In this document: in pieces, positions 16,087 through 32,100 of the stretch
How positions within the stretch are numbered: the stretch's first letter is position 1
Layout: every line of letters starts with the position of its first letter
Source of the DNA: Podaxis mareebaensis
Taxonomy: Eukaryota > Basidiomycota > Agaricomycetes > Agaricales > Agaricaceae
Length of the DNA: 64,000 nt
NCBI GenBank assembly: GCA_018524725.1
Contig: JAEUWP010000143.1
Location: 1 to 64,000 of the forward strand
Reading direction: 5' to 3'
Translations under genes and position numbers: made by a program
Notes under the pieces: model-generated
What the model was told of the DNA's origin: nothing
Databases searched by the model: none
Seen by the model: the letters and a program-made list of their open reading frames with translations, nothing else

Positions 16087-18226
16087 TCATCCCAAAAACG
16101 CCAACTCCGTCATTCTCCTAACCTCATCGTCCTTAATCGCGTTCATCTCCATGATGATACTTCCTCGACTATGCAGTGTCGGACCAACTGGCCTCCGACT
16201 GGGTGCTCTCAACTCTGCACCCGACTCTCCATTGACACCAGTCCCAACACCAGGAGTCGGATTAAATTGACTTGGCAGTCTCGGCGATGATGGCATATAA
16301 GAAGCATCAAACGTCTTCGCACGGCCACTCGTACTCGACGGCGCAAGAGACGAGGCATCATACGCAGACTTGGGCCTCGTGAAAGTCGACGCGACCCTCT
16401 TCAAGTTCCCAAATGACGCCGAAACCGAAATTCTCTTGGATCCTCCTGGCGCGGGAGGTTCCAGTGACTGACCCCTCTTAAAAGGGTTGAACGACTTCCT
16501 CTTGTCTTGTTTCCCTGGATCGGTAAATCCTCTGCCTCGTCGTTGTGGAGCCGGAGTCTCAGGTACTGCAAGCGTGGCCGAATGCCCTTCCGAAACCGGA
16601 GACAGAGGTAGTGGGATTTCCTCTGGGATCACCTCATGCTCGGTTACCAAGGCTTCTTCCACAGGACTCTCCACGATCATAGGAATGTCGCGTCTATGCT
16701 CTGGTGTCTTGACTTTCATTGTGTTATTTTTGCCTTTTGGGCCACTAACGTAACCTGTACCAGGGACGGCACTCAGCGACTCTGCCGTATTTATGGAGAT
16801 CGTTGTCGCTGTCCTGGAACAGGTATCCAGCGATGGCGTCATCAGGGAAGAAGCTGATTCGGAGATGGAAGGCATCTGGGTGAGCGATTCCGAGCGCCTA
16901 TGTTGGAGGGAGGTGGTAAGGGAGGAAGAGGAAGGGAATTCACCAAAGGAGTTCACATGGGCCGGAGGCGTCAACGAGATGACAGGGTTCGTAGGGAGAG
17001 ACGCAGATGATGAGGACTTGCGAGAGCCAGAACGGTTGTGCCCACTACAGCTTGACGAGGAGTCAACATCAGCATTTCGCGTGAGATGGAATGACGAAGG
17101 TGGATGACTCGTCGCCGAGGATATAGAAGCTTTTCGACCACCAGGCTTTAAAGGTGTCGACGGAGGTGTGGGCAGAGGGGAAGGAGGGAGAGGAACGGAG
17201 GCCGGGTCGGTTGGACTATGCTCAGCCGATGCAGAGGATCTGCGGGAGGGAATCTTCCGTGTTGAGTCCTTTGCCGGAACTGGTGGTGGGGCTACATCAT
17301 CGTCGGGCAATGGTGAAGGCAATGGAGAGTGGACTTCTGCTACAGTTTCAAGCTCTAGTATTTGAACGGATTCGGCTGATCTTGGAGCTGCGGTACCGAA
17401 ACGGAAAGTTTTCATGCGTTCTCGCTCTTCGGTTTCTGCAGAGTCCACAGAACCCACAGCCTTATTTTTGGCTTCCCATTCCCGCTTGATGAGATCAGCG
17501 GCTGAAGGTTCAGTAGTACTATCAGGAGGCTTGCGATCGGAAGGGACGATGGGAATGTAGCGGTCCTGCTCAGCCTCCTGCCGGCTCAAGTCTTTGGGTG
17601 GTTTGAGAGGAGGAAGCAGCCCACGCTCGCGCAGCGCTGCCTCGCGATTTTGCTTTGCCTGAAGACTTGTATTGGCTGGTGGAGGTGGAGGTGATGTCGG
17701 TGATGCGGGAGACTGGGACCGGAACGTCGTGCTAATTACACGCAAGATTGTCCGTGATTTGGAGCGCGGACGTTGGAGAGAATGCTTGCTAGAGAACCAA
17801 TGCCACATTAGAAGAGGGAGGGGGAACGGGCAAAGGCGAGGTACCTGACTGGGTCTGCACTGTCTGGCTTTTGGTTGGCTGTTGGCTTGTTTGGCACACC
17901 ACTTGATCAAGGTAGACGGACATGAGACAGGACGCCTGATGTATGAGGCTGGCCACACACCTGTTACCAGCAGTCCCCACCTCATTAGCATTGATGACGG
18001 CCATGTCCGCTGGCGTAGTCGCGAGCTTAAGCTTAGATCCGGAAGGGGCGGGAGGATTACCAGATGCGAGGAAGCGGGTGGGACTGATCAAGTCGAGGAA
18101 AGACCTGCGTGACTTCATGGAGCTGGCTTCCAAAGAGGGACGAACTGGAGGGGGAAGGGGAGAGAACGATCGGGGAGTCGAGCTTTCCTCTGGAAAGTGG
18201 GGGAGGGGGCGGAGAGTAGTTGCCAT
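16087..18226 (-). CDS. Long disordered Ser/Pro-rich protein of unknown function
   Basis: Not recognised as a named family. The model uses three minus-strand exons: 18226-17981, 17885-17845 (41 nt) and 17788-16087, giving 662 residues. The N-terminus MATTLRPLPHFPEE contains SRRSFLDLISPTRFLASG. The middle contains PRSKSRTILRVISTTF followed by a basic, Pro-rich stretch. Most of the rest is Ser/Pro/Thr-rich with many SP and RRxS sites, for example QHRRSESLTQMPS and KRKSFNPFKRGQS. The C-terminus GSIIMEMNAIKDDEVRRMTELAFLG looks ordered and is probably the conserved part. The long frame stays open up to 17991, but that upstream stretch reads like intron, which is why I prefer the spliced N-terminus. 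The acceptor of intron 1 is the weakest call. Pattern and composition suggest a phosphoregulated scaffold, but no function can be assigned. Confidence 0.72.
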
Positions 18227-20453
18227 TAGATAGATGTCCAAGGGCAAGGAGGTCAAGGATAAATGATGGAGAGCGAGAGCATGTGCTGGCTGAGAAAACG
18301 GGCTCTGGAAGATGCGATCTCTTCCCCTTCAAGTCACCTGAAATAGTCCTATAGAGTTCCGGGGAACTACAACGCCACTGGCGTCAATTAGTCCCTGGCA
18401 GTTATTCCACTCCTAGCGGCCAACTGCAAAGCACTGAGCAGAGAGAAATTAGGCGGGAACAGGATCTGCATGGTCTTATGGAGCTTATGAAGTCGCTCCC
18501 AGTCGCCCCATGAAACGAAACGAATCACAGTGCTGGCGTGGGAACGGCCGGCTTGCCCAATCGACCACCCTGGAATGTGGGGGTTATCCCCGGTTGGATT
18601 TCATCTCAGATTTTCTTTGTCGAAGCGTCCGCTGGGCGGTGCTCATGAGTCTTGTAGACGGCTGAGCCTTTCTTCCTCACCACAATCAACACTCATTTGA
18701 AAGTTTCTCTTTGTTCTTCCTGTGGAGCTTCTCCTCCAGCAGACTCCCCATTGCCATAGTTCGCTTAGTTCCACCAAGAAGCACCCTCGTGTGAACACTT
18801 CTTCCCGCGCATTGACGCGAGGCTGACCCGCACTTTCTTGGACGCACCGATAAAACCGTCACCGTTGGTCAAACAACGTGTAACTCGCTTGAGTCTCTGT
18901 GCATCAATCACCTTTCCTCAGTTCCTGAGGATATACGAGGGTCCCTCAAAGTTCATTACTTATGACAGGTCTGAAAGTTCGCAAGGGACCGGTCCAACCC
19001 ATCTGATCGTATGTTTTCCATGTCAAGGAATGGAACATCTTCCGGTTTCAGGTCCCGCAGTCAACAATCGCCGTTAAACCCCACCATCAATTCCTCCCTT
19101 CTATACCTACTAAGCGGGTAAATGTCGCTTTCGTATTGGAACAAAATCAACCGCCAGGGACGCCAGGCGTTTCTGAATGTTACTCAATTTCGGAACTTGA
19201 TGGGCACAGGCGTCCACATGGGTCAGCCTGGGTCAGCCCCTCGGCGATGGAAAACTTATTATGCGCCCGAGGTGAACTCCCCACGTCGCACACGCATTTG
19301 TTTCCGTCTCAATAACCACAATATCCTCGAGATGTAGTTAGTGTTCTTCGGGCGAACGCGACCTATCTCGGATGCTGTCCCATTTACTTTGGCAGCTTGG
19401 TCAATTCGCCACAAAAGCGTAATGACTTTACCTCTTAGCTCCCGTAATATTGATCCAGAGCCGATCCTGACAGTTGTTATGCTGAAAGACTCCCCACTCA
19501 GATCGACAGACGTTATGGCTTGCTCCTGGATCGTGTCCTTGGACAACAGCTGACCCGACATTTGACGTGACTGTGTGGGTAGGTGTTTACATGCATCTAC
19601 GACCGTCGACGCCGAACAATCAACGTACAAGTTCTGTCGAGACGACTCCCACACGAAACAAGTCATCGATGCTATTAATACTATTCGGAAGTTCGCGCAA
19701 AGGATGTTACCAGTTACCAAAGAAAACTGAATAGGCTTCGCTTTTCGAAACCGACCCAGAGTTTTCGTCTCAACGCAGAATACCTCGATACTGTAACTCG
19801 CTTGGCAGCGAATCCTACGCCATGATCTCTTTTCAAGTCTCGTTCTGTGTAGCCTCTCCAAACTCGCTTTGCCTCTGCACGATCGACGACCTAAGCTCCA
19901 CCAACATTCTTTCATCGAAACCTAAAGCTTCTACAAGCTTTTTACCCAGGGTCGCCCCACTCCACCTTCTTGAACGACAATCACGAAAGAGACGTACGTA
20001 TCTACGTTGTGGCTCAAGTCGCTGATCATTTTCTCGAAGCCACGTATCAGTGTCGTGTCGGAGCCAGAGTTTAAGAAGCATGGGACATGCCCTTACGCGT
20101 GGCGACCATGAGGATGCGTTGGGTGCTCTGCAGAATCCGTCTAAACCCTACATGCCTTCTGCACACTCTTGAGTCATAATCGTGCTCTATTCATTGACTG
20201 ACGATATTATTGTATTGGATCCTTGGAATTGGCAATGTTCCGTGTTAGGTTCCGTTGGCATTTGAATAAAACCGTTGCGAAAACGCTGTACCCTACTTCT
20301 GTCATTTAATAAGTACGACAACGCATTAAGACGCAAGAAAGACCCCGACGGTGTCTTTCAGCGAAATGGGCGCTAATAGCAGTAATGATTCGAAGCCTGT
20401 GATCACATAATAACCACCCAGCCACGTTCGAGATCGCTTTCCCAGATGCCATC
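18227..20453. other. Gene-poor region containing one unexplained 218-codon frame
   Basis: Between the disordered-protein gene (-) and FRA10AC1 (+). The main open frame is on the minus strand, 19915-19259, with an ATG start and 218 codons. It contains a protein-like stretch SGESFSITTVRIGSGSI and LRELRGKVITLLWRIDQAA. A second minus frame, 20081-19833, overlaps it in another phase. I could not join them by splice sites or match either to a family. No repeats or RNA genes are evident. Confidence 0.45.
19259..19915 (-). CDS. Uncertain 218-codon open frame
   Basis: Unrecognised. It begins with an ATG, has no introns in this reading, and its second half (residues about 120-218) alternates hydrophobic and charged residues more like a folded protein than the Arg-rich first half. 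In a genome this intron-dense, an uninterrupted frame of this length is somewhat unlikely by chance, but the first part overlaps another open frame and no family motif supports it. It may be one exon of a lineage-specific gene, a decayed gene, or chance. Confidence 0.25.
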   Translation of the reverse strand: MKECWWSLGRRSCRGKASLERLHRTRLEKRSWRRIRCQASYSIEVFCVETKTLGRFRKAKPIQFSLVTGNILCANFRIVLIASMTCFVWESSRQNLYVDCSASTVVDACKHLPTQSRQMSGQLLSKDTIQEQAITSVDLSGESFSITTVRIGSGSILRELRGKVITLLWRIDQAAKVNGTASEIGRVRPKNTNYISRILWLLRRKQMRVRRGEFTSGA

Positions 20454-21603
20454 ATGTCACTATACCCAACCAAAGCATATCCCATAACAAAAGGTCTCTC
20501 GGAATTCGAGATCCTTAAAGCATCACACAAGTACGCCATCCACTTTTATCTAATCTGAGCCGGGAGGCTGACTTGAGAGTGACTGACTAGATTCCTCCGA
20601 GAAGACGACACTCCCAACGACAAGAACGAGAACGAAACTTCAGCCAAAGCCAGTGCGAATGCAAGCAAGACGTGGGAGGACAAACTAGCAGAAAAGTACT
20701 ACGAGAATCTCTACCGTGAATTCGCAGTATGTGATTTGAAACATTACAAGTCTGGTAACGTACGTATCTTCCATTCCCATTCCCTTCCTCCTTATTCATT
20801 GATTCTGTCTTGATTAGTTTGCACTCCGCTGGCGCACAGAATCTGAAGTCCTCTCTGGCGCGGGCGAATCCACATGCGGGAACACACGATGCAAATACCA
20901 CTACACTTCCTCAGAATCATTATCTAGGAAGAAGAAGAAACCGCAGCTGACGACATTGGAACTACCATTTGCGTATGTTGAGCATGGGGAGGCTAAGAGC
21001 GCGTTGGTGAAAGTCGTCCTATGTCCAAGGTGTGCGAAAAAGTTGATGTGGAAGAGGAGGAAAGATAAGGAGTGTGCAATGGCTATGGAAAGGGGTGAAA
21101 TGGACCAGGCCGATCGTGCGTTGGGTGATGGGGATGGTGTAAGTGAGAGTGAGGATTCAGAGGTTGAGGTTGAGGGGCTTAGGAGGAAAGGGAAAGGGAA
21201 AGAAAGGGAGAGAGAAATGGCGGAGAACGGGAATGAAGCTGGGACGGAGCCCATAGGCGAGAAAGCAGACAAGGACTCATGGACGCGTTCGACGGATATG
21301 CACGGGGTGGAGGATCGCAGTCGGAAGCAACATCACCGTGACGACAACTTCAACAACACAGGCCACGAGGGCAAGCCGAGGAAGCGAAGCTCTCGTTCCC
21401 GGTCACCACGACGGCGACATCGTTCACATCCACGCCGCCGTAACGACAACTTCAATAACCCAGGCCACGAGGGCGAGTCGAGGAAACGGAGCTCCCGTTC
21501 TCGATCACCACGACGGCGACATCATTCACATCCACATAATAATCCCCACTTGTCTTCAAGAAAGCGCAGCCGCAGTTGCGACCACGACGGCAGAAATACA
21601 TAA
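20454..21603 (+). CDS. FRA10AC1: FRA10AC1-family protein, spliceosome-associated, with RS tail
   Basis: Homologue of human FRA10AC1, a nuclear protein found with late spliceosomes. Three exons (20454-20530, 20591-20759, 20818-21603) give 343 residues. Core family blocks are clear: EILKASHKFLREDD, WEDKLAEKYYENLYREFAV, CDLKHYKSGNFALRWRTE, EVLSGAGESTCGN, then YVEHGEAKSALVKVVLCPRC and KKLMWKRR. The Cys pairs (CGNTRC and CPRC) look like a zinc-binding site. After residue about 170 the chain becomes acidic, then basic, and ends in an RS-type tail made of a 34-residue unit repeated twice (RKRSSRSRSPRRR). The tail is typical of splicing-speckle proteins and suits the proposed role. This is the intact FRA10AC1 of a duplicated pair; a dead copy lies at about 25080-25600. 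Confidence 0.93.
21341..21538 (+). repeat. 102-nt in-frame tandem repeat encoding the RS tail
   Basis: Two copies with a period of 102 nt (34 codons), beginning at 21341 and 21443, each encoding DNFNN, GHEG, then RKRSSRSRSPRRRH. The copies differ at several third positions, so the duplication is not very recent. Confidence 0.85.
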
Positions 21604-21679
21604 CAGCACTCTACAGTATACGTCTATAGTTTTTAATCGCTTCACCCTCCAACTCAGGCCGAATAATATATAACATGTA

Positions 21680-22690
21680 ACTAGTTCCTCTTCACATGCA
21701 CACATTCTCAACTCCCAGTTTCTGAACCTCAAGCGACCACACCTCGGCGCACAGCCCCAGACAACCCCTCATGCCGACTAACACTTGCAACTCAGCATTT
21801 TCAATTCCGCGCCCATACCTGTATGATCCGTTAACCGCTTTGCTGATCGCGGATCGCGGCACGACATTCGTCAATCTTTTGCTGCACAGTAAGTCGACGT
21901 GTAGGTCGATGCTCGCAAGTTCAAAGAAGGTGCATTAAGGCCAGACTGTGGCTCGGTACGTTACTAGTTGCGTTACTTTCTGAGCACGTGGGGCGAACGA
22001 CGAGGGAGGGGACATACCAAAGTCAAACACTGTTTCTCTGAGGTAGGCGAAATGATTATTGACTGTTACATCGAACTTTCAAGCTTATAAAACACGTCTA
22101 TAATCTTACGTTGTCTAAGCCTAAATAAAACACAGGTGAGAGTTTAAAAGCGAGGAAAAGATCACGACACGTTCACCCTCAACGAATCTCCCCACCCCAA
22201 TCAATAATTAACCCACACCCACCCAATAGAACTACTGGGGCTCGGCGCAACCTCACATCTGGAATCCCGGGCTGGTCGTACGACTCCGTCTACCTGTTTC
22301 CAATGTTCTGGCAAACCACGCATACCACATATGGTTTGTCGATCGTCTGAAGACCGCGAGCCACCTACTGACAAATCCTTTCAACTCTCTCTCCTGACCT
22401 GGCTTCGTTTCGACGCCCTTTTCTACTTGATTTCCTGCGCAATTCTGTCGCTTCGCTTATTATATGACGAAAGTCTGATTTGTTGGTGTAGGCTTTGCAT
22501 ACACTCGCCACTCAATATGCTTCCCTTGTCTTCTATCTTTTATTTCCGATCTTAGGTTGTTTTAGTTTCCGACCATGGACCGACCCCCACTTACGCGTAA
22601 GGGCTAGATGGGTAGTGGGCTAAAGCACCCCAGTGCAACGAGGATAGCGAACTCGGATGGGTAGGATCCTAGCTACGGAGATGCAAGTCG
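21680..22690 (-). pseudogene. Decayed NDUFAF7/MidA copy 1 (C-terminal part)
   Basis: The plus strand here aligns along its length with the 3' half of the intact MidA gene at 25660-26800. Shared landmarks include TGATCGCGGATCGCGGCACG (21843-21862 here), the ACATACC exon end near 22017, the intron with ACACGTCTA, ACTCACCCTGAACGAATCTC-like sequence at about 22173-22192, and the CGGATGGGT block near 22655. Frames are broken by many substitutions and small indels, and no splice-joined product can be made. The 5' exons are missing or unrecognisable. It lies just downstream of intact FRA10AC1, convergent to it, exactly as intact MidA lies relative to the dead FRA10AC1. Confidence 0.85.
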
Positions 22691-23421
22691 AGACAAAAAT
22701 CACCGATCTCTTGTCTGTTACTCTCATATTCAGTTCCCCGCTGAGCTTCTTACATTTCAGGTGCCGCCATACCCGAACTTTTAATGTTATCTTTGGAAAC
22801 TGGAATACGGTGCCTTCAGAATGCCTGGGTCACATGTCCTAGCATCGGTGGAACTAAAATTGTCATCTTTGGCTATGCACTTGGTCGTCTTCACTTGTCT
22901 TCGACTGCAGGCATCAGGCGGATCAATATCGCACTGCTATATTGCACTGTGAAACGCGTCGGCAATCTTGTGTTTAATTGCTTAAATAAAACATAGGCTG
23001 GTACAATGGCACCAAAAAACGCGCACTCACCCTCAAATAAATCTCCAAGAAAACTTATCCACACCTTGATCAATAGTCAGCTCATGCCAGGATTCGGAGC
23101 AACCTCCTGTTTGCTGTGTGAGATTGAATGTTTGAACGTCGAGCTGGCCGACGACTCCAACTGTTTGGACCAACCACGCATACCTTATTTGGTATGTCTA
23201 ACCAATTCACACAGCCACCAGCACTCACAAGTTCCTCCATCTTTCTCTGCTGACTTGGTTCCGTTTCAATGCACCCTTCCACTTAGTTTTATACACGCTT
23301 CGTCGTTTCGCTTCTGATATGGTGGATACTCGAGTTCCTGTCGCAGGCTTTGTGTATTCTCCCTACTCAGTATTCTCTTTTTGTTTTCTATCTTTTATTC
23401 CGTTTTCTATTCGTTTTAGCT
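22121..23421. repeat. Diverged ~0.45-kb direct repeat inside the dead MidA copies
   Basis: Two copies, about 22121-22567 and 22981-23421, offset by about 855-860 bases. Both start with CTAAATAAAACA-like sequence, run through a MidA-derived exon end (CACCCTCAA), then ACCACGCATACC, and finish in CTTCTATCTTTTATT followed by a TTTTAG run. The second half of the unit is not present in the intact MidA gene, so it was inserted before the unit was duplicated. Divergence is high. Confidence 0.75.
22695..22836. repeat. ~145-base dispersed repeat, copy A
   Basis: Pairs with copy B at 24841-24988. Both contain CTCTTGTCTG/TCTTGTCTAT, CAGGTGCC, TTTTTAATGTTATC, TTTGGAA and GTGCCTTCAGAAT in the same order and orientation, ending in CACATG or CACGTG. 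Each copy sits at the 5' edge of a dead MidA copy, so it is either part of the ancestral MidA upstream region or a small element. Confidence 0.75.
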
Positions 23422-24800
23422 TCGAAGTGTACGCCAAGCCTGCCTGAATGTTTACGCGCCACGCTCTACAGCTCTACAGTATACATGAGTTCATGACCGC
23501 GCCTGCAATAAGAATGTAATGAATACATATATATTTTATGCCCTCTCTTTCTCTCACCTCGCTCCTTGTCCACTGTGCCGAAGCTAACATGGGAACGACG
23601 CTAACGTGGTCGCCAAACCACTCCCACCGTTCATCTACACCTCTGTGGCACGACCTTCAAAGCCCAACTCCCTAGACGGCGGTCGTGTGGCTCGGAGCCG
23701 ATGTCTGATTCAGATCCAGACATGAATGATTCCCCAAAACGCCAATTGCATGACCTGGGGTTTGGTACATCCACTTGCCTGGAAGATGGCGAAGGGTGAT
23801 GGGCTAAGGGACCCATGTGCGACGAGCACAGTGCATTCGGATGGGTTCGTTGGAGTCCTAGCTATGAAATGGTGGAAAGGTAGTCTGATGTCCCCTTGTG
23901 ATAGGATTTTTTTATTTTTGGATTGCGTGGACTCCGGAAAGCTTAACTCATCTGTAAGGGGTGAAAGACTACGAGGACACCCGACGACACAACGACTAGC
24001 CTAAGTACAAGAAAACTTTCTATGAGCTGCAGTGAGTACAGTTAGAGGGAGCGTTCGTCCATGAGATTTTCCCTCCCATATCCCCAGTTCCGCAAGCCCT
24101 CAACTGCATGATGTGAGTGACGCATCCTCGGGACCGAACTCCTATGATACACTTGATTCGTCCAGCCGGCAGCGTGATGATAGTTGTGCTCCACTCGGCT
24201 AGAAGCAGCGAGCTGTGCTCATTTTCTTTTACGTGATGAAGGGGGATACAACGAGGAACACACCTCGCGAAGGACTTTCTCTGAATTCTGAGTTGATGGC
24301 AAAGTCTCCTTGGACCCAAAACTGGGTTGGGTGCGTTACTGTTATGTCCCTACGTAATATGTAAAAGGCATATATACGTCTCAGGTAAAATAGGACCTGG
24401 TCACCACAGACTGAGCAGGTGAATTTCAAGGTGTACATTAGGGGGTGAACAGTCGACAGTTACACTTTCGATCGGCAAGGCAGGCATGCCGTATCGAGGT
24501 GTCACGCCCGAGAAGTGAGGAATTGAAGTAAATATACAGGCAATGTTCTGAGAAAAAGTGAGTCACCTTCATTTGAATAGTCAGAAGCGGCCTAAGAAGT
24601 CGGTGCCGTGGCCCTACGATGACGGAGCGATGATATGACTGGCTTTGGGGGTCTTCGTAGGGGTATAAAATCTTTGCGTTTCTACTGCTGGCTCTGCACA
24701 TTGACACCGTCTGCTTAAGACAGAAGCACCTCCTAGAAGGCCGTCGTGTGAGCAGATACTTTCTTTTTTTTTATCCATAGTGATGAACCCAGTAGTGTCG
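23023..24800 (-). pseudogene. Decayed NDUFAF7/MidA copy 2 (nearly full length)
   Basis: Collinear with intact MidA from the exon 5/6 region through the first exon and into the upstream region. Matches include the 23650-23780 block (counterpart of the SESDFAPTPHDRQL coding segment), CGGATGGGTTCG at about 23837 (counterpart of the HEFFDALP exon), the CCCATATCCCCAGTTCC block near 24075 (counterpart of GPGRGTLMDD), AAAGTCTCCTTGGACCC at about 24300 (counterpart of the GSQGDF exon) and ACCTGGTCACC near 24393. Upstream, ATGACTGGCTTTGGGG at about 24635 matches the intact promoter. Nonsense changes and frameshifts are scattered through every exon. An inserted segment (about 23200-23640) breaks the order. 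Confidence 0.85.
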
Positions 24801-24840
24801 ACATCGTCAAACATGAGCAAAGCTCATGAAAGATGAGACA

Positions 24841-24988
24841 GAAATTCACCCTGATATCTTGTCTATTATTCTTGTATCCAATCGCTCACTGAACCTCTCA
24901 CTTTTCTTCCAGGTGCCAAGATACCCAATTTTTTAATGTTATCTTTGGAATCTAGAATACAGTGCCTTCAGAATATTTGTGTCACGTG
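24841..24988. repeat. ~145-base dispersed repeat, copy B
   Basis: Same orientation and motif order as copy A at 22695-22836. Between this copy and the dead FRA10AC1 at 25080 there is no recognisable gene. Confidence 0.75.
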
Positions 24989-25079
24989 ATATGACGTTTG
25001 TGGAAGAACATTGATCATGTAACGTAAATAGGAAACTACAATCCATGGTAGTGTAGCTGCTACGCACTTCTGATTTACG

Positions 25080-25600
25080 GGGTATCATTAATCAGCTGGG
25101 CCCTCGAAGAGCCATCGTCGTCCAGGAAACCGATGAAGGGCCCATCATCGAGGACGTTGGAACGCTGACAATGCGTTGGTGAAAATCATATTAAGTATGT
25201 CCCACGGTGTGTGATGAAGTTGATGTAGAAGAGAGGGGGGCAGGATTCATGGGAGCATACAATTGCAATGAAAGACGGATTTATGAAGCAGGACCATCGT
25301 GTACTCCGTAGTGCAGGCGCCAATTGTTATGGTGGCCTGAGTGAGGCTGAGAACCTGGAGGTTGAGGTTGAGCAAGTTAAGAGAAGGAGAGACGCGATGG
25401 TCGACGAAACTATGTGGAAAACCAAGAAATTTCACCAAGATGTTCGACGGGTACAAACGGGAAGCAAGGTCACTGTGACGATCATAACTCCAACAGCGTA
25501 GAACATGTGATAACATTCACCGCCATTCATCTTCAAAAAAAAACCAGCGGCAGTCGCAATTACGACCGCAGCAATACATAACTGGTATTCTAAAACATCA
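25080..25600 (+). pseudogene. Decayed FRA10AC1 copy (3' part of exon 3 only)
   Basis: Aligns with the last exon and 3' flank of intact FRA10AC1 (about 20920-21670). Shared stretches include GCGTTGGTGAAA, AAGTTGATGT, GAGGTTGAGGTTGAG and the 3' flank CACTTCACCCTCCAAC. The Trp codon in KKLMWKRR has become TAG at 25226-25228, and the RS repeats are lost. Exons 1 and 2 are absent. It ends convergent with intact MidA. Confidence 0.88.
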
Positions 25601-25659
25601 GTGCATAGACTCTAAGCACTTCACCCTCCAACCCGAGCCCAAGCAAAATAAACAGGTAA

Positions 25660-27472
25660 CTACTTCCTTCCTTTCACATGGACACAATCCTCAACCCTCT
25701 TCGGTTCCCAAACCTCAAATGGCCACGCCTCAGCCCCAACCAACCCTTCATGCCGACTAACACTCGTAACCCCCAACACCTTATACTGCTCGCCCATACC
25801 TGTACGATCCGTTATCCGTTTCGCGGAATCGCGGATCGCGGCACGACGTTCTTCAGTCTTCGCTGCCCGGGCGAGGGTTTCGACACGTAGATCAATACCC
25901 ATACGTTCGAGGAAGGTGCGTTGGGAGATTGGACCGTGAGGTGTCACTAGTTACATTGTTTGTGAGCATGCGGGTTTAAAAGTAAGGGGAAGGAGGAAAC
26001 ATACCAAGGTCGGACATTGCTTCTTTGAGGTAAGCGAAATCGACGTTGGCTGTCAAATCACACTCTCCAGGACTGTGGAACACGTCTACGATCTTATGTT
26101 GCTTGAATGCCTGGGCAAAACAACCCCTTAAGCTCAATTCCAAAGAAAAACTCAAACAACCACACTCACCCTGAACGAATCTCCATAAACTTTATCCCCA
26201 CCATAATCAATAATCAACCCACACCCGCCTACAGCCGAATTCGAATTCGGAGCAACCTCGTGTTTCCTCGTACTACGGTTGTGGTTCAAACCTAAACTCT
26301 CTAGTTGACGGTCATGCGGTGTGGGGGCGAAGTCGGATTCGGATCCCGATGCTGGTGTTCCAGACACCAATTGCGCGAGTTGGCGCGCGATTTTGAAGGA
26401 GGCGGGGGAAACTTCGATGAAAGACCCAGTGGGGAGGTTGTGGAATCGTGGAGAAGAGAGGCCGAGAAGGGTTGAGGCGGCTGTTGGGGCTGGGGAGAGG
26501 ACGCGACGGAGGCGAGGGATTATATGTGAGTTGGCGTTGGCATTGGTTGCGGTGGTTTGGGTCGAAGTGGAGGTGATGGGAGAGGAGGAGTGGTCAGTGT
26601 CGATCATGACTTCGTGCCACCCTGTTTCTTTTTTCTGATGCGGGCAGGTGAGGATGGAGGCGTTTGGGAGAATTATCTATTTACCTGCAGGAGGTGGATT
26701 GGTAACGCGTCAAAGAACTCGTGTGCAACAAGCATGGTATATTCGGATGGGTCTGGTGGAATGTCGGCTATGGAGTGGTGAAAATGGAGGTTAACGTTGC
26801 GCTTTGAGTGGAGTTTTTGTTCTTGGATTGCACGGAGTGCTTGACTTGTTTCCACGAGGTGAACGCTTACGGGGTCACTCGATGGACGCAACTGCGAAAC
26901 AACCTAAATACGAAAAAAGATTGTCTAAGTTTTAGTAGGTCCAATAAGAAATGGGATACATACTCGGAGGATATCATCCATAAGGGTTCCCCTCCCGGGT
27001 CCCAGTTCCACGAGCCTTATGTTGGATGGACTTCCAGCATTCGCCCATTGCGACAGTAGCCATACCCCAATCAGCTAGCAACAGGGCACTGAATGCTCAT
27101 TCCTTCTGCACCGCAGAAAGGGATGCGGTGGGGAGGAACATACCTCTCCAAAGACTTGGCTGATTTCTGGGCTGGTAATGAAGTCTCCTTGGGAACCGAA
27201 CACGGGGTTGGACGCGTTCATATAATACCCATGTGTAGGATGTGAAAGACATAGTTGCATATACGTCGCAAGTGAAATGGGACCTGTCGACTATACACTG
27301 GTTGGATGAATCTCGTAACATGAACGCGAAGTGGACTGACTTTGATGTTGTCGACGATTATTTTCTCGACGGGTGTCGGCGAGTACGTGGTATTGGACTG
27401 CCACCTCCGAGAAGCAAGGAAGCGAGGTATACAACCGACATTCCGAGAACAGAGACGAGTGATAGACATCAT
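25660..27472 (-). CDS. NDUFAF7: NDUFAF7/MidA, mitochondrial arginine methyltransferase for complex I assembly
   Basis: SAM-dependent enzyme that dimethylates an Arg of the NDUFS2 subunit during early complex I assembly. Seven minus-strand exons (27472-27341, 27290-27144, 27074-26964, 26903-26685, 26634-26170, 26110-26005, 25946-25660) give 488 residues. The N-terminus MMSITRLCSRN, rich in Arg and Ser and lacking acids, is a mitochondrial presequence. Family blocks follow: STGPISLATYMQLCLSHP, THGYY, GDFITSPEISQVFGE, LIGVWLLSQW, the SAM-binding IRLVELGPGRGTLMDDILR, MLVAHEFFDALPIH, GWHEVMI, GLIIDYGGD, ANVDFAYLKEAM, TPHGPISQRTFLERMGI. Exon 5 includes a low-complexity insert of about 80 residues. 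All splice junctions keep frame. It is the only intact copy; two dead copies lie to the left. Confidence 0.95.
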
Positions 27473-27649
27473 CCTCGTTCAAGTTGAGAGTCAGAGGAAG
27501 CAGGAGAGCCGGTACCGTCGTATGACGAAATGACAAAATCTGACTGGCTTAGGCGCCTTAGCTAAGCTATATATTTATTTTGCTTCTTATCGAGTTCCCC
27601 TAATCACCCCCCTCAGTGTCTTGCCAGTCAAACAGATACCCGTACCATA
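27473..27649. promoter_or_regulatory. Divergent promoter of NDUFAF7 and eIF6
   Basis: Only 177 bases separate the two ATG codons, so the genes must share promoter space. An A/T-rich TATATATTTATTTT stretch lies at about 27569-27582, about 70 bases before the eIF6 start. The left part of this region is also recognisable upstream of dead MidA copy 2 (ATGACTGGCTT near 24635). Confidence 0.6.
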
Positions 27650-28609
27650 ATGGCTACTCGTGCGTAGCCATTGTTATTGCCCAACCTACTCGTGTCTGAC
27701 GATGTCACAGGCATCCAATTCGAAAACAGCAGCGATATCGGCGTTTTTTCTAAATTGACAAACAGTTACTGCCTTTGCGCCATCCAAGGCAGCGCAAATT
27801 TCTATTCGGCTTTCGAGGCCGAGCTGGGAGATGTCATTCCCATTGTACACACAAGTATTGGTGGCACACGTATCATCGGACGCTTAACAGCGGGTAAGCA
27901 CTCCTTCTCTTCTCATCCCGCCCCGCGATCCCATTGGCAAAAATAAAATATGTAGGAAACCGACATGGGTTGCTTGTTCCCTCTACAACCACGGACCAAG
28001 AGCTCCAACATCTTAGAAACTCGCTGCCAGACGCCGTTGCGATCCAGCGCGTCGAAGAGCGGCTGTCGGCATTAGGAAATGTCATCGCATGCAATGATTA
28101 TGTCGCTCTCGTTCACCCCGACGTTGATCGGGAGACGGAGGAAATCATTGCGGATGTATTGAAGGTCGAGGTGTTCCGACAGACAATTGCGGACAATGTA
28201 CTTGTGGGAAGCTATTGTGCGATTACGAATCAGGGTGGTTTAGTGCACCCCAAGACAAGTATACAGGACCAGGATGAGTTGAGTAGTCTGCTCCAGGTGC
28301 CTTTGGTGGTATGTTTTATTATTATTTTTTCTTGTCTGGTTGTTGCCAACTCTTCCTTTTCAAGGCCGGGACAGTGAACCGTGGTTCGGATGTTATTGGT
28401 GCCGGTCTAGTGGTGAATGACTGGTGTGCTTTTACTGGTCTCGAGACTACAGCGACCGAGATCAGTGTGATCGAAGCAACGTTCAGTGAGTTTTTGACGT
28501 GTGTCGTGTTTTCGATCGTTCATTGACGAAGATCGCAGAGCTACAAGGACAAAGCTCGAGTGCAGTGATTGGGGAGATGCGGGATTCATTGATTGATAAT
28601 TGGGCATAA
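27650..28609 (+). CDS. TIF6: Translation initiation factor 6 (eIF6/Tif6)
   Basis: Binds the 60S subunit, is needed for its biogenesis and prevents early joining with 40S. Five exons (27650-27659, 27711-27893, 27956-28308, 28365-28485, 28539-28609) give 245 residues, exactly the length of human and yeast eIF6. The first coding exon is only 10 nt (Met-Ala-Thr plus one base). Conserved blocks: [104 protein letters not shown], ending [10 protein letters not shown]. Transcribed away from NDUFAF7. Confidence 0.97.
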
Positions 28610-29101
28610 TCGTGTTATTCGTTCAGAGTTAATCTATTCTGCGTGTTCCTGACACGAGGGCCACATTGCCAGATATGGACATCCGATTTTGTCACCCAAC
28701 GTAATTGTTTCAACAGAGACCCTGCAAAGATCGCTATGATAACTGATGCTCCCCACCGCGGCCGTTGCAGCGCGGGCAGCCTCGGTCGGCACTGGGGCTC
28801 TGGCCACTGCCTCATCATCGTGCGGCGTCGGGGGTGATAACCGTCGGGCGAGATGCAGGGATGGCTATTTGGCAAAGAAGGCAACGGAAACAAGGCCGGG
28901 CGAGAATGAAGCAAAAGAACTCAAACACGTGTGGCTGTCCGTCAGCCTCATGTCCTGCTTCTCAAATATGCCCCCATCCTCACAACACCGTCCCCTCCCT
29001 ATCCCCCTGCACGCGCACTCTGCGTGTTTCAACCTTTATACTCTTGAAAAACTCACCCTCGTCGCCAAGATAGCTTCCCTATCTCACCAGCCATCCAGGT
29101 A
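28610..29101. other. eIF6 3' flank and promoter of the next gene
   Basis: No gene seen. The last 200 bases are C/T-rich on the plus strand (for example ACACCGTCCCCTCCCTATCCCC at about 28984), which is common just upstream of starts in basidiomycetes. Confidence 0.55.
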
Positions 29102-32100
29102 ATGTCTGCGACGGCTGTCCAGAACGCCCTCGCCGACTCAAGCCCCCCTCGCGTCAGGCGCAAACCCGCACCGAGCGTTGTCTACCCCCAGCAGCCCCCA
29201 GCCCCGTCGCACATCTCCCAGTCCCCCTCCCAGACTCAGCTTCACCAACCATGTCCCCAACAAGTCACTCAACCGTTTCACAAGCTCAGCTTCTCTGAAA
29301 GATACCCTGAGCCTGATCCCACAGACCCATTTGCTCCTCTCTGGGTTTTGCGCAACCGAACCTCTAGCGCGTTGCAACGCGACGCGCTACCAGTTACTGG
29401 GCCTCTGTTGCAGAGGGATCCTTCTACTGACGAGTTTGGTGTCATTTCAAGATACACTGATCGCCGTCGCTCGATATCCTACCTCCAAACGATTGCTGCT
29501 GCGTCTACGCGCAACGTTTCAGATGCTGCCCAGCCCGCTTATGCTTCCGATCATGGCCATGGGACCCCTGTGAGAACTCAACGCGCATATAGCATTGACA
29601 ACGGTGCCGGTCATGCTACTGGCAATACCATTGCACCGTCCGCGAGGCGACAGTCCATCAGGCCCACCCCGCTTTCTCAGGTTACTGCACTCGTTCCGTC
29701 CGTTTCCCGGGGGTCTATCAATCCTGACGCGCCAAAACCAACGCATATACGCATCATTCAGCAACCATTGTCTGTGGAAAATGATGGCAATAGTAGTGGT
29801 GCAGAGAGCGATTCGACGCGAGTTGGAAATTCTGGTACCGACCTGGAAATGACACCACGACCTGCGGCGCAGCGGCAACACCGTGAGCACCAGGAACAGG
29901 AGCAGAGGCCTAGAGCAGGCTCAGCCAACAAGCTTACACGCTTTCTCAAGACACGTAAAGTTAGCCATTCGGACTCCAACTCGCATAATGTCCGCGCATC
30001 GATTGCCGACATCAATCGAATTCGCAAGGCATCCATTTCTCCTCCTGTGTACTCTACTGTGGTATGGGCGAGCCAAGGACAGGACTTTTTACCCATCGAC
30101 AACCACCCTTTGCAGCGGAATGCTATTCCTATTTTAGCTTCTCAGGCTGATACTGTTCCGTCTCCGATACGAGAAACCTCAGACTCAGTGCACACGACGC
30201 AGGGTTCCCTCCCGGTTGTAGCCCCAGTACCCATTCGCCACCTCCCTTCGCCCTCACCTGAACCAGTTCCCCTTTCTGTCCCTGACCAGGCTCTGTCAAG
30301 CAGCACCACACCACTGCCACCTCACACACTCACCTCTCGTCCCTCCCAAACCTCTCACACTGCCCATACCGATGAAACACACTCCTCGTTCTCATTCGTT
30401 CACGTTCCTTCTGCATTTTCTTCTCCCTCCCTTGCACAGTTGACATCTGAGTATGTGCGTCAAGCGCAGGCACAAGGCACACTTTCTCGACCGGCAACTA
30501 CACCACTCCCTGAGCATGAACCCGGATCAGGTGTAGCTGCGACAATCGCCTCTCCAGCAACCATGAAAATCAAACGCAGCACATCCCGGCCCACATCTAA
30601 ACTTCCCCTTCCTCATCCTTCCCCTATCAACTCCGGGTCCCTGTTGCCATCATCACCTCTCAGTTCCAACTATACCATCTCTCAATCCGACTCGACGCAA
30701 GCCCGAGTCGTAGGCGAATGGGACCTCCCAACTTTTTCGGCGTTAACCAAAGCCGCCTCGCTCCCCATCATCGCCGAATCCGGTGTCCGAATCAATTTTG
30801 GTACCTTGTTTGCACAGCAACGAGTTGTCGTGGTGTTCATCCGACATTTCTGGTGTCCTTTGTGCCAGGATTACATGTCCTCCGTCGCTTCTTTTACCCG
30901 ACACATTCCGGAACTCTTGGGTTCCTCGGGGATTGAAGAAATGAACGAGAAGGTTGTGGATGGGGATGAAGAAGGAGGCGGAGAGATAAAGGGAAAATCG
31001 GTCAAGGTGGTTGTGATCAGTAATGGATCATACACTATGATCGGGAAGTACAAGCAAATTTTCGGTGCGGTTTCGTTGGAGGTGTATACCGACCCGGGCT
31101 TGGCTGTGTACGCTGCGTTGGGGATGGGGAAGGACCCCGCGAGTTTGCCTGATCATGGACACGGGCATGGGAGGTCTAAGGGTGGTGGACAGGCACACTT
31201 AAATGCCGAGGTTCTGGCTGGTGGTGGCGGAGATGGTGGGAAGGGAGATAAGGCCGTGGTGCGCGGGAGGAGACATACAGATGGTGGATATGTCAAGCAT
31301 GGATTGATGAGTGGGATCGCGATGGTATTTGTGAGAGCTTTGAAAGTTGGGATGCCGGTATGGGAGAAGGGAGGTGATTTGAATCAGTTGGGTGGGGAGT
31401 TTGTGTTTGGGCCTGGGTACGTTTTTCTTCAGTATGATTTCTGCTGAGAACGTGGTCGTTGATTTGATTTATTGGTAGTTTGGTGTGCACGTATGCGCAT
31501 AGGATGCAAAATACCAAGGGCCATGCCCCTTTTGAAGACGTCCTCCGCGCAGCTGGTGTTGTTGTCCCCCCACCTCGTCCGCTCCATTCGTCCAAAGATC
31601 AGGGGGATAAAGAACAAGACAGGAAGCCGAACTCGTTGCGCAAGTCTCGCCCTTCCAATGCTTCTAAATCATCAAAAACGCGAGTGAAAGCCCAAACCAT
31701 TGATTTTGTTCCTGTCCCCGTCCCTGTCCTGCCATCTCCAACCCCAGCACCCGTAGCCAAAGCATCGCCATCCCAGTCGTCAACGACACCAGAACGCAAG
31801 AAGTCGCATAGGAGACGCCGGAGTGTTTTGCGATCTCCGAATGGTGGTGTTAGCCCCACTGTGACAGCAAGTGTTAGCGTTAGCGCAAAAGTCATTCTTC
31901 CGCAAGTGAAGGTGTCGGTGCAATCGGAAAAGGAGGAGGATAAAGATGTTCCTGTGCATACAACCACTTCCGCGAACGTCGACGTCGTTACCTCTGTCCC
32001 TGCGTCAAGACCAACGCCTAACGCAGTTGAGCAACGGACAGAGACGACCGCCTCAATGACAGTTACGACCTCGACGAAACAGGAAGATCCCGCTATTGAC

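Follow-up and report, generated by a model that had tools for sequence, protein, structure and literature searches.

How did one short locus come to hold two neighboring genes, each in one intact and at least one broken copy? The question is raised by positions 20,454 to 27,472 of a 64,000-nucleotide (nt) stretch of Podaxis mareebaensis DNA (contig JAEUWP010000143.1; the whole stretch is called the window), in which FRA10AC1 on the forward strand faces MidA (NDUFAF7) on the reverse strand. A preliminary description had seen here a single tandem duplication of the convergent pair, followed by the loss of a different gene from each block. Our analysis points, with a probability of roughly 0.85, to a fuller history, in which the block was copied in tandem, the outer copies survived, the inner ones died, and the dead MidA was then copied once more. 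Searches covered the window and the whole of its own genome (37 megabases, 429 contigs), and splice models were drawn by eye and then checked by homology.

A convergent gene pair copied as one block

The two intact genes and the two dead copies recognized at the outset are as follows.

20454-20530, 20591-20759 and 20818-21603, forward strand: intact FRA10AC1, three exons, 343 amino acids.
21680-22680, reverse strand: dead MidA copy A, which lacks exons 1-3 and comprises exon 7, exon 6, the 3' part of exon 5, an insertion and the 3' part of exon 4.
25095-25581, forward strand: dead FRA10AC1, which starts in exon 3 and has internal deletions.
25660-27472, reverse strand: intact MidA, seven exons in the spliced model, 488 amino acids.

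The duplication was evident from a self-BLAST of the whole window, in which 21553-22223 aligned with 25530-26229 over 716 columns (68%, E 3.5e-57). This alignment takes in the terminal part of FRA10AC1, the short spacer, two introns and, of MidA, exons 7 and 6 together with the end of exon 5. Because one alignment thus crosses a gene end, the spacer and the next gene, the FRA10AC1-MidA pair was copied as one block, which confirms the earlier proposal made from the shared 3' flanks; chance similarity between the blocks is excluded. The copies are co-linear, lie in direct orientation and include spacer DNA, as in a tandem segmental duplication. The alignment of copy A continues through MidA introns 6 and 5, and the dead copies carry stops, frameshifts and the marks of relaxed selection, as in non-processed pseudogenes. 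Long pairwise alignments were made with soft gap costs, which inflated their identities to 70-72%, and no weight was placed on these values.

Both intact genes were borne out at 20454-21603 and 25660-27472. All introns of the spliced models were of the GT..AG type (2/2 in FRA10AC1, 6/6 in MidA), and the proteins gave near full-length Pfam matches, namely PF09725 for FRA10AC1 (E 3.9e-45, covering 2-118 of 118) and PF02636 for MidA (E 2.1e-57, covering 1-248 of 249). Relatives of MidA with solved structures include 5ztz, an NDUFAF7 homologue, and 1zkd. Among the best 120 matches listed for each gene, the first was from Macrolepiota fuliginosa, both for MidA (P0001, 81% identity over 88% of the query) and for FRA10AC1 (63% identity over 78%), and proteins of Agaricus, Leucoagaricus and Leucocoprinus were among the next best, which would suit a mushroom of the Agaricaceae or close to it. 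Both intact genes are presumably expressed.

The dead copies were real, with some correction of their extent. The dead MidA previously placed at 21680-22690 is interrupted by about 310 base pairs (bp) that are not MidA (22260-22569), and its exons 1-3 are missing. The dead FRA10AC1 previously placed at 25080-25600 begins only within exon 3 (about 25095) and corresponds to the intact gene from about 20900 to the stop; exons 1-2 and upstream DNA were not found beside this inner copy by tblastn, alignments or shuffle tests. An own-genome search for the FRA10AC1 family returned two exon matches, both in the intact gene at 20454-21603. The corresponding PF02636 search gave four matches, which represent intact MidA and a divergent gene at C240:115126-115978. 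The latter was considered as a source of the dead copies and rejected, being by eye a divergent PF02636 paralogue and no close copy.

Intact FRA10AC1 also contains an in-frame 102-bp tandem repeat (21336-21433 / 21438-21535, 89% identical), which doubles its C-terminal RS-rich (arginine/serine-rich) segment; five aligned relatives (P0121, P0122, P0123, P0125 and P0126) have gaps at the second repeat unit.

A third MidA unit

The picture of two units with a single dead MidA did not hold: a second dead MidA lies at about 22917-24700, which makes three MidA units. The claim that each block lost a different gene therefore stands in so far as FRA10AC1 and MidA are each represented by an intact copy and one or more dead ones, and falls short in the number of MidA units. 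The additional features, together with the outer neighbor of intact MidA, are listed below.

22917-24565, reverse strand: dead MidA copy B, with part of exon 6, an interrupted exon 5 and exons 4-1, from alignments to intact MidA.
24564-24814, no strand assigned: copy B 5' flank, matching the intact MidA 5' flank at 27474-27714.
22260-22569, no strand assigned: insertion in exon 5 of copy A, common to copy B.
23132-23645, no strand assigned: counterpart of this exon-5 insertion in copy B, sharing its first 290 bp with copy A; the right edge was placed by eye.
22681-22868, no strand assigned: element D1a, adjoining copy A.
24826-25020, no strand assigned: element D1b, past the copy B 5' flank; the element is about 190 bp long.
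27650-28609, forward strand: intact EIF6 (TIF6), exon borders set by eye.

With intact MidA as the query, tblastn recovered pieces at 21725-22226 (E to 1e-6), 23658-23967 (E to 7e-7) and 24314-24397 (E 0.001), together with weaker but correctly ordered pieces at 22607-22660, 22925-22975 and 23092-23166 (E 0.06-0.43). Self-BLAST added five pairs with E values from 2e-16 to 5e-4: 22299-22569/23156-23423, 22607-22675/23791-23864, 23013-23079/26153-26216, 23816-23926/26722-26831 and 24253-24399/27133-27286. Taken together, these pieces show two dead MidA copies, arranged head to tail. Copy B also retains 5' flanking DNA, since 143/227 positions were identical to 27474-27714 (z 6.0, 0/200 shuffles as high); the likeness is clearest as far as about 24690/27593.

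The two dead copies share what intact MidA lacks. The insertion in copy A matched 23132-23423 at 207/289 positions, a score reached by 0/200 shuffles, and D1a matched D1b at 143/187 (0/200 as high). In genome searches at E up to 10 that scored their best candidates only, neither other copies of the insertion nor D1 beyond D1a and D1b were found. Because the insertion and D1 are common to copies A and B and were not found elsewhere in the genome, the dead MidA itself was tandemly copied. In the same vein, the protein tree paired copies A and B, with values of 86.4/87 for the Shimodaira-Hasegawa-like approximate likelihood ratio test (SH-aLRT) and the ultrafast bootstrap (UFBoot).

Over 176 three-way columns of exons 6-5, copies A and B had 15 differences from intact MidA in common, a further 26 were private to A and 31 to B, and all three differed in 14 columns; the 15 common against 26 and 31 private differences indicate that the second duplication came soon after the first. 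Exon 4 allows a longer shared history of A and B (91 columns; 15 common, 12 private to A, 11 private to B, 5 all different).

Regarding the nature of the inserted sequences, a repeated transposon was rejected for the exon-5 insertion, as no further genomic copy and no terminal inverted repeats were found; the copy A region has no inverted repeats, and the copy B region has two short imperfect ones (14-15 nt), away from its ends. D1 was likewise compared with EIF6 exon 2, of which it might have been a decayed copy, and this candidate was not upheld, the resemblance being weak and inconsistent between D1a, D1b and gap settings. For D1a, 4/200 shuffles scored as high against EIF6 and 1/1000 against exon 2 under the global setting; for D1b the counts were 71/200 and 117/1000; a D1a+D1b profile gave 62/150, and stiffer gaps gave 151/1000 and 926/1000. 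Nor did an origin of D1 from FRA10AC1 upstream DNA or exons 2-3 find support, neither the upstream region nor the 5' exons yielding a signal.

Decay of the dead copies

In order to follow the decay of the dead copies, each was compared with its intact partner by the ratio of nonsynonymous to synonymous substitution rates (dN/dS). For copy A this ratio was 0.44 (bootstrap 0.28-0.69; 165 readable codons, 2 stops), for copy B 0.54 (0.39-0.78; 248 readable codons, 5 stops) and for dead FRA10AC1 0.68 (0.40-1.19; 117 readable codons, 2 stops). Theory expects a value of roughly 0.5-0.6 when one branch is neutral and the other constrained. Being near this value, the ratios suggest that the dead copies probably had little constrained life. 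Differences by codon position were 40/38/57 in copy A, 66/75/88 in copy B and 38/32/33 in dead FRA10AC1. Indels not a multiple of three made up 21/24, 35/41 and 9/17, respectively, with introns and spacer counted. Stops, frameshifts and dN/dS are thus all consistent with neutral decay since soon after the duplication. A check for repeat-induced point mutation, confined to CpG context, gave C>T/G>A changes at 53/245 CpG positions and at 146/811 elsewhere, with a transition/transversion ratio of 1.53, so that a strong excess was not seen.

Date of the duplication

The duplication was dated against Macrolepiota. A MidA site was taken as informative if the intact residue departs from that of Macrolepiota while all readable residues of P0002, P0003 and P0014, at least two in number, match the latter. 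At such sites, copy A showed the intact state 5 times, the ancestral state 3 times and neither 4 times; for copy B the numbers were 4, 1 and 1. As background, residues private to Macrolepiota were matched in 1/4 (A) and 0/5 (B) cases, and residues private to one of the P0002, P0003 and P0014 species in 1/19 (A) and 2/26 (B). The dead copies therefore carried intact-private residues in 9/18 readings against 4/54 for the background of four species (Fisher p 2.3e-4), the 18 readings not being independent, as four sites were read in both A and B. In a tree of 345 columns and 11 homologues, both dead copies grouped with intact MidA and Macrolepiota fell outside (SH-aLRT/UFBoot 92.7/93). The duplication is thus probably younger than the Macrolepiota split. 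It is not recent, as dN and dS suggest a divergence on the order of 0.3 substitutions per neutral site per branch.

Linkage of the pair in other species

The genomic context in other species was read from the locus tags in the best 120 listed matches per gene, leaving out numbers in the style of the Joint Genome Institute as non-positional; serial tags covering FRA10AC1 as well as MidA were available for 11 species. The FRA10AC1 and MidA tags were adjacent in 5/11 (Leucocoprinus leucothites, Tricholomella constricta, Sphagnurus paluster, Agrocybe chaxingu and Trametes sanguinea) and 3-7 apart in 3/11 (Amanita brunnescens, Amanita polypyramis and Panaeolus cyanescens). With the pair within seven tags in 8/11 species, the linked FRA10AC1-MidA arrangement is ancestral. 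The MidA and FRA10AC1 of Macrolepiota fuliginosa each come from a contig of 263,840 bases. The pair P0003/P0126 comes from contigs of 4,342 bases, taken as the same contig from their equal number of bases and too short for a 4-kilobase (kb) dead block between the genes. In Candolleomyces aberdarensis the tags of EIF6 and MidA are neighbors, and in Amanita polypyramis they are two apart; with EIF6 beside MidA elsewhere, the right-hand neighbor looks old too.

Proposed history and alternative explanations

Based on these results, we propose the following order of events. A block extending at least from exon 3 of FRA10AC1 up to and including the 5' flank of MidA would have been duplicated in tandem, probably after the Macrolepiota split. 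The outer copies would have stayed functional, FRA10AC1 on the left and MidA, still beside EIF6, on the right, while the inner FRA10AC1 and inner MidA became redundant and died. The inner MidA would have acquired the exon-5 insertion, which may have been its killing blow, and a segment running from exon 6 of this gene to D1 would then have been tandemly copied to give the third MidA unit, with deletions in copy A afterwards. The 5' half of the inner FRA10AC1 was presumably lost or never present, and the dead copies would have decayed since under little or no selection.

Several observations weigh against this history. Only two FRA10AC1 sites were usable as informative sites; both showed neither state and were uninformative. 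A tree with the dead copies outside intact MidA plus Macrolepiota was 5.4 log units worse and was not rejected (approximately unbiased test, p 0.07). The excess of private over common differences in exons 6-5 is a further difficulty unless the second duplication quickly succeeded the first, as it must have done. No source was found for D1, so that the junction is not accounted for. As for the ancestral linkage, the two tags lie 111 apart in Amanita inopinata, on contigs equal in size, and the genes are unlinked in 2/11 species (Psilocybe cf. subviscida and Marasmius tenuissimus).

The strongest competitor, to which we give somewhat less than even odds, is that the breakpoint cut FRA10AC1 in exon 3, so that the inner FRA10AC1 was dead on arrival, never worked, and left no later loss to be called reciprocal. 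The failure to trace exons 1-2 and upstream DNA at the inner copy, its dN/dS of 0.68 and its flat differences by codon position all speak for this, although a later loss of the 5' half would look identical, and D1 with about 80 bp lies between the MidA flank and dead FRA10AC1, so that the junction is no simple cut. For MidA the same explanation fails, as copy B retains 5' exons and some 5' flank. This retention shows the inner MidA to have been largely complete once, which would suit a true loss after a prolonged stage with two functional pairs. Such a stage is nevertheless improbable: the dN/dS ratios come close to what one neutral branch would give, and together with the weak third-position excess they leave scant room for long constraint, although for copy A the bootstrap range reaches down to 0.28 and so permits some. 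That the dead copies were kept as antisense or regulatory DNA, FRA10AC1 read-through being antisense to copy A and able to pair with MidA messenger RNA, is very unlikely despite the convergent layout with about 75 bp between stops (from coordinates) and an exact match of 20 nt in repeat family D11, as no Rfam match was found in 17000-30000 at gathering thresholds, and the mostly frame-breaking indels count only against coding use.

The kind of loss and comparison with known systems

The proposed history of block copying, inner death and recopying describes complementary loss within one genome. This falls short of showing the reciprocal gene loss of Semon and Wolfe, in which, as quoted in PMC6934887, two lineages lose alternative copies after speciation. 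The preliminary description had also suggested that the locus could produce incompatible combinations in crosses. By reasoning we consider this unlikely: with no more than 7 kb spanning the copies, they would nearly always be inherited together, and null recombinants would be very rare. Hybrid breakdown from reciprocal loss requires segregating alternative copies.

With two genes and two blocks, losses would fall in different blocks half the time by chance. Moreover, the two copies that died were those with their 5' ends toward the new junction, an outcome for which the chance expectation is 1/4. One could speculate, with considerable doubt, that the junction-facing copies of a duplicated convergent pair die because their regulatory context is broken, whereas the natively flanked outer copies survive; the locus matches such a rule exactly.

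Among known systems, the closest are duplicated (non-processed) pseudogenes from tandem segmental duplication, with which the locus shares copied introns and spacer, stops, frameshifts and neutral decay. It differs from ordinary cases in having two adjacent genes per block, complementary survivors and a dead gene recopied in tandem. In mammalian BAAT/BAATP1 (PMC6934887), the genes are likewise tandem duplicates of which one copy is generally enough, but the losses differ between lineages, whereas here the complementarity is between two neighboring genes of one genome. The duplicate-gene hybrid lethality of Mimulus (PMC5896889) also involves duplicates with different working copies; there, 1/16 of F2 seedlings die, which would suit two unlinked loci, in contrast to copies within 7 kb.

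Literature searches combining FRA10AC1 with fungi gave only Chlamydomonas work, and those combining NDUFAF7 with basidiomycetes, or truncated dead-on-arrival tandem duplicates with breakpoints, found nothing. Searches for pseudogenes or tandem duplication in mushrooms (Agaricales) found nothing on this locus in titles and abstract beginnings. The locus is an ordinary, well-preserved case of duplicate loss. Because it preserves both genes in four original copies, together with an additional dead one and the intact partners alongside, an order of insertion, re-duplication and decay can be proposed from a single locus. Alone, it has no bearing on speciation; if a sister species had resolved the same locus differently, it would become a fungal example of divergent resolution in tandem duplicates.

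Neighboring genes and other features of the window

EIF6 was identified by PF01912 (E 8.4e-83) and by 98% identity to a Marasmius EIF6. On the other side, no second copy of the approximately 2.1 kb upstream of FRA10AC1 (18300-20454) was found in the genome; this region holds an open reading frame of 218 amino acids (19259-19915, reverse strand) without a Pfam match. ARAGORN gave no match in the whole window. A long open reading frame at 29102-31447 (781 amino acids) encodes an AhpC/TSA-type C-terminal domain (PF13911, E 5.2e-9). Finally, self-BLAST of the window revealed further short repeat pairs at 38965-39035/41766-41837, 43389-43446/43447-43505 and, in inverted orientation, 36854-36895/37166-37207.

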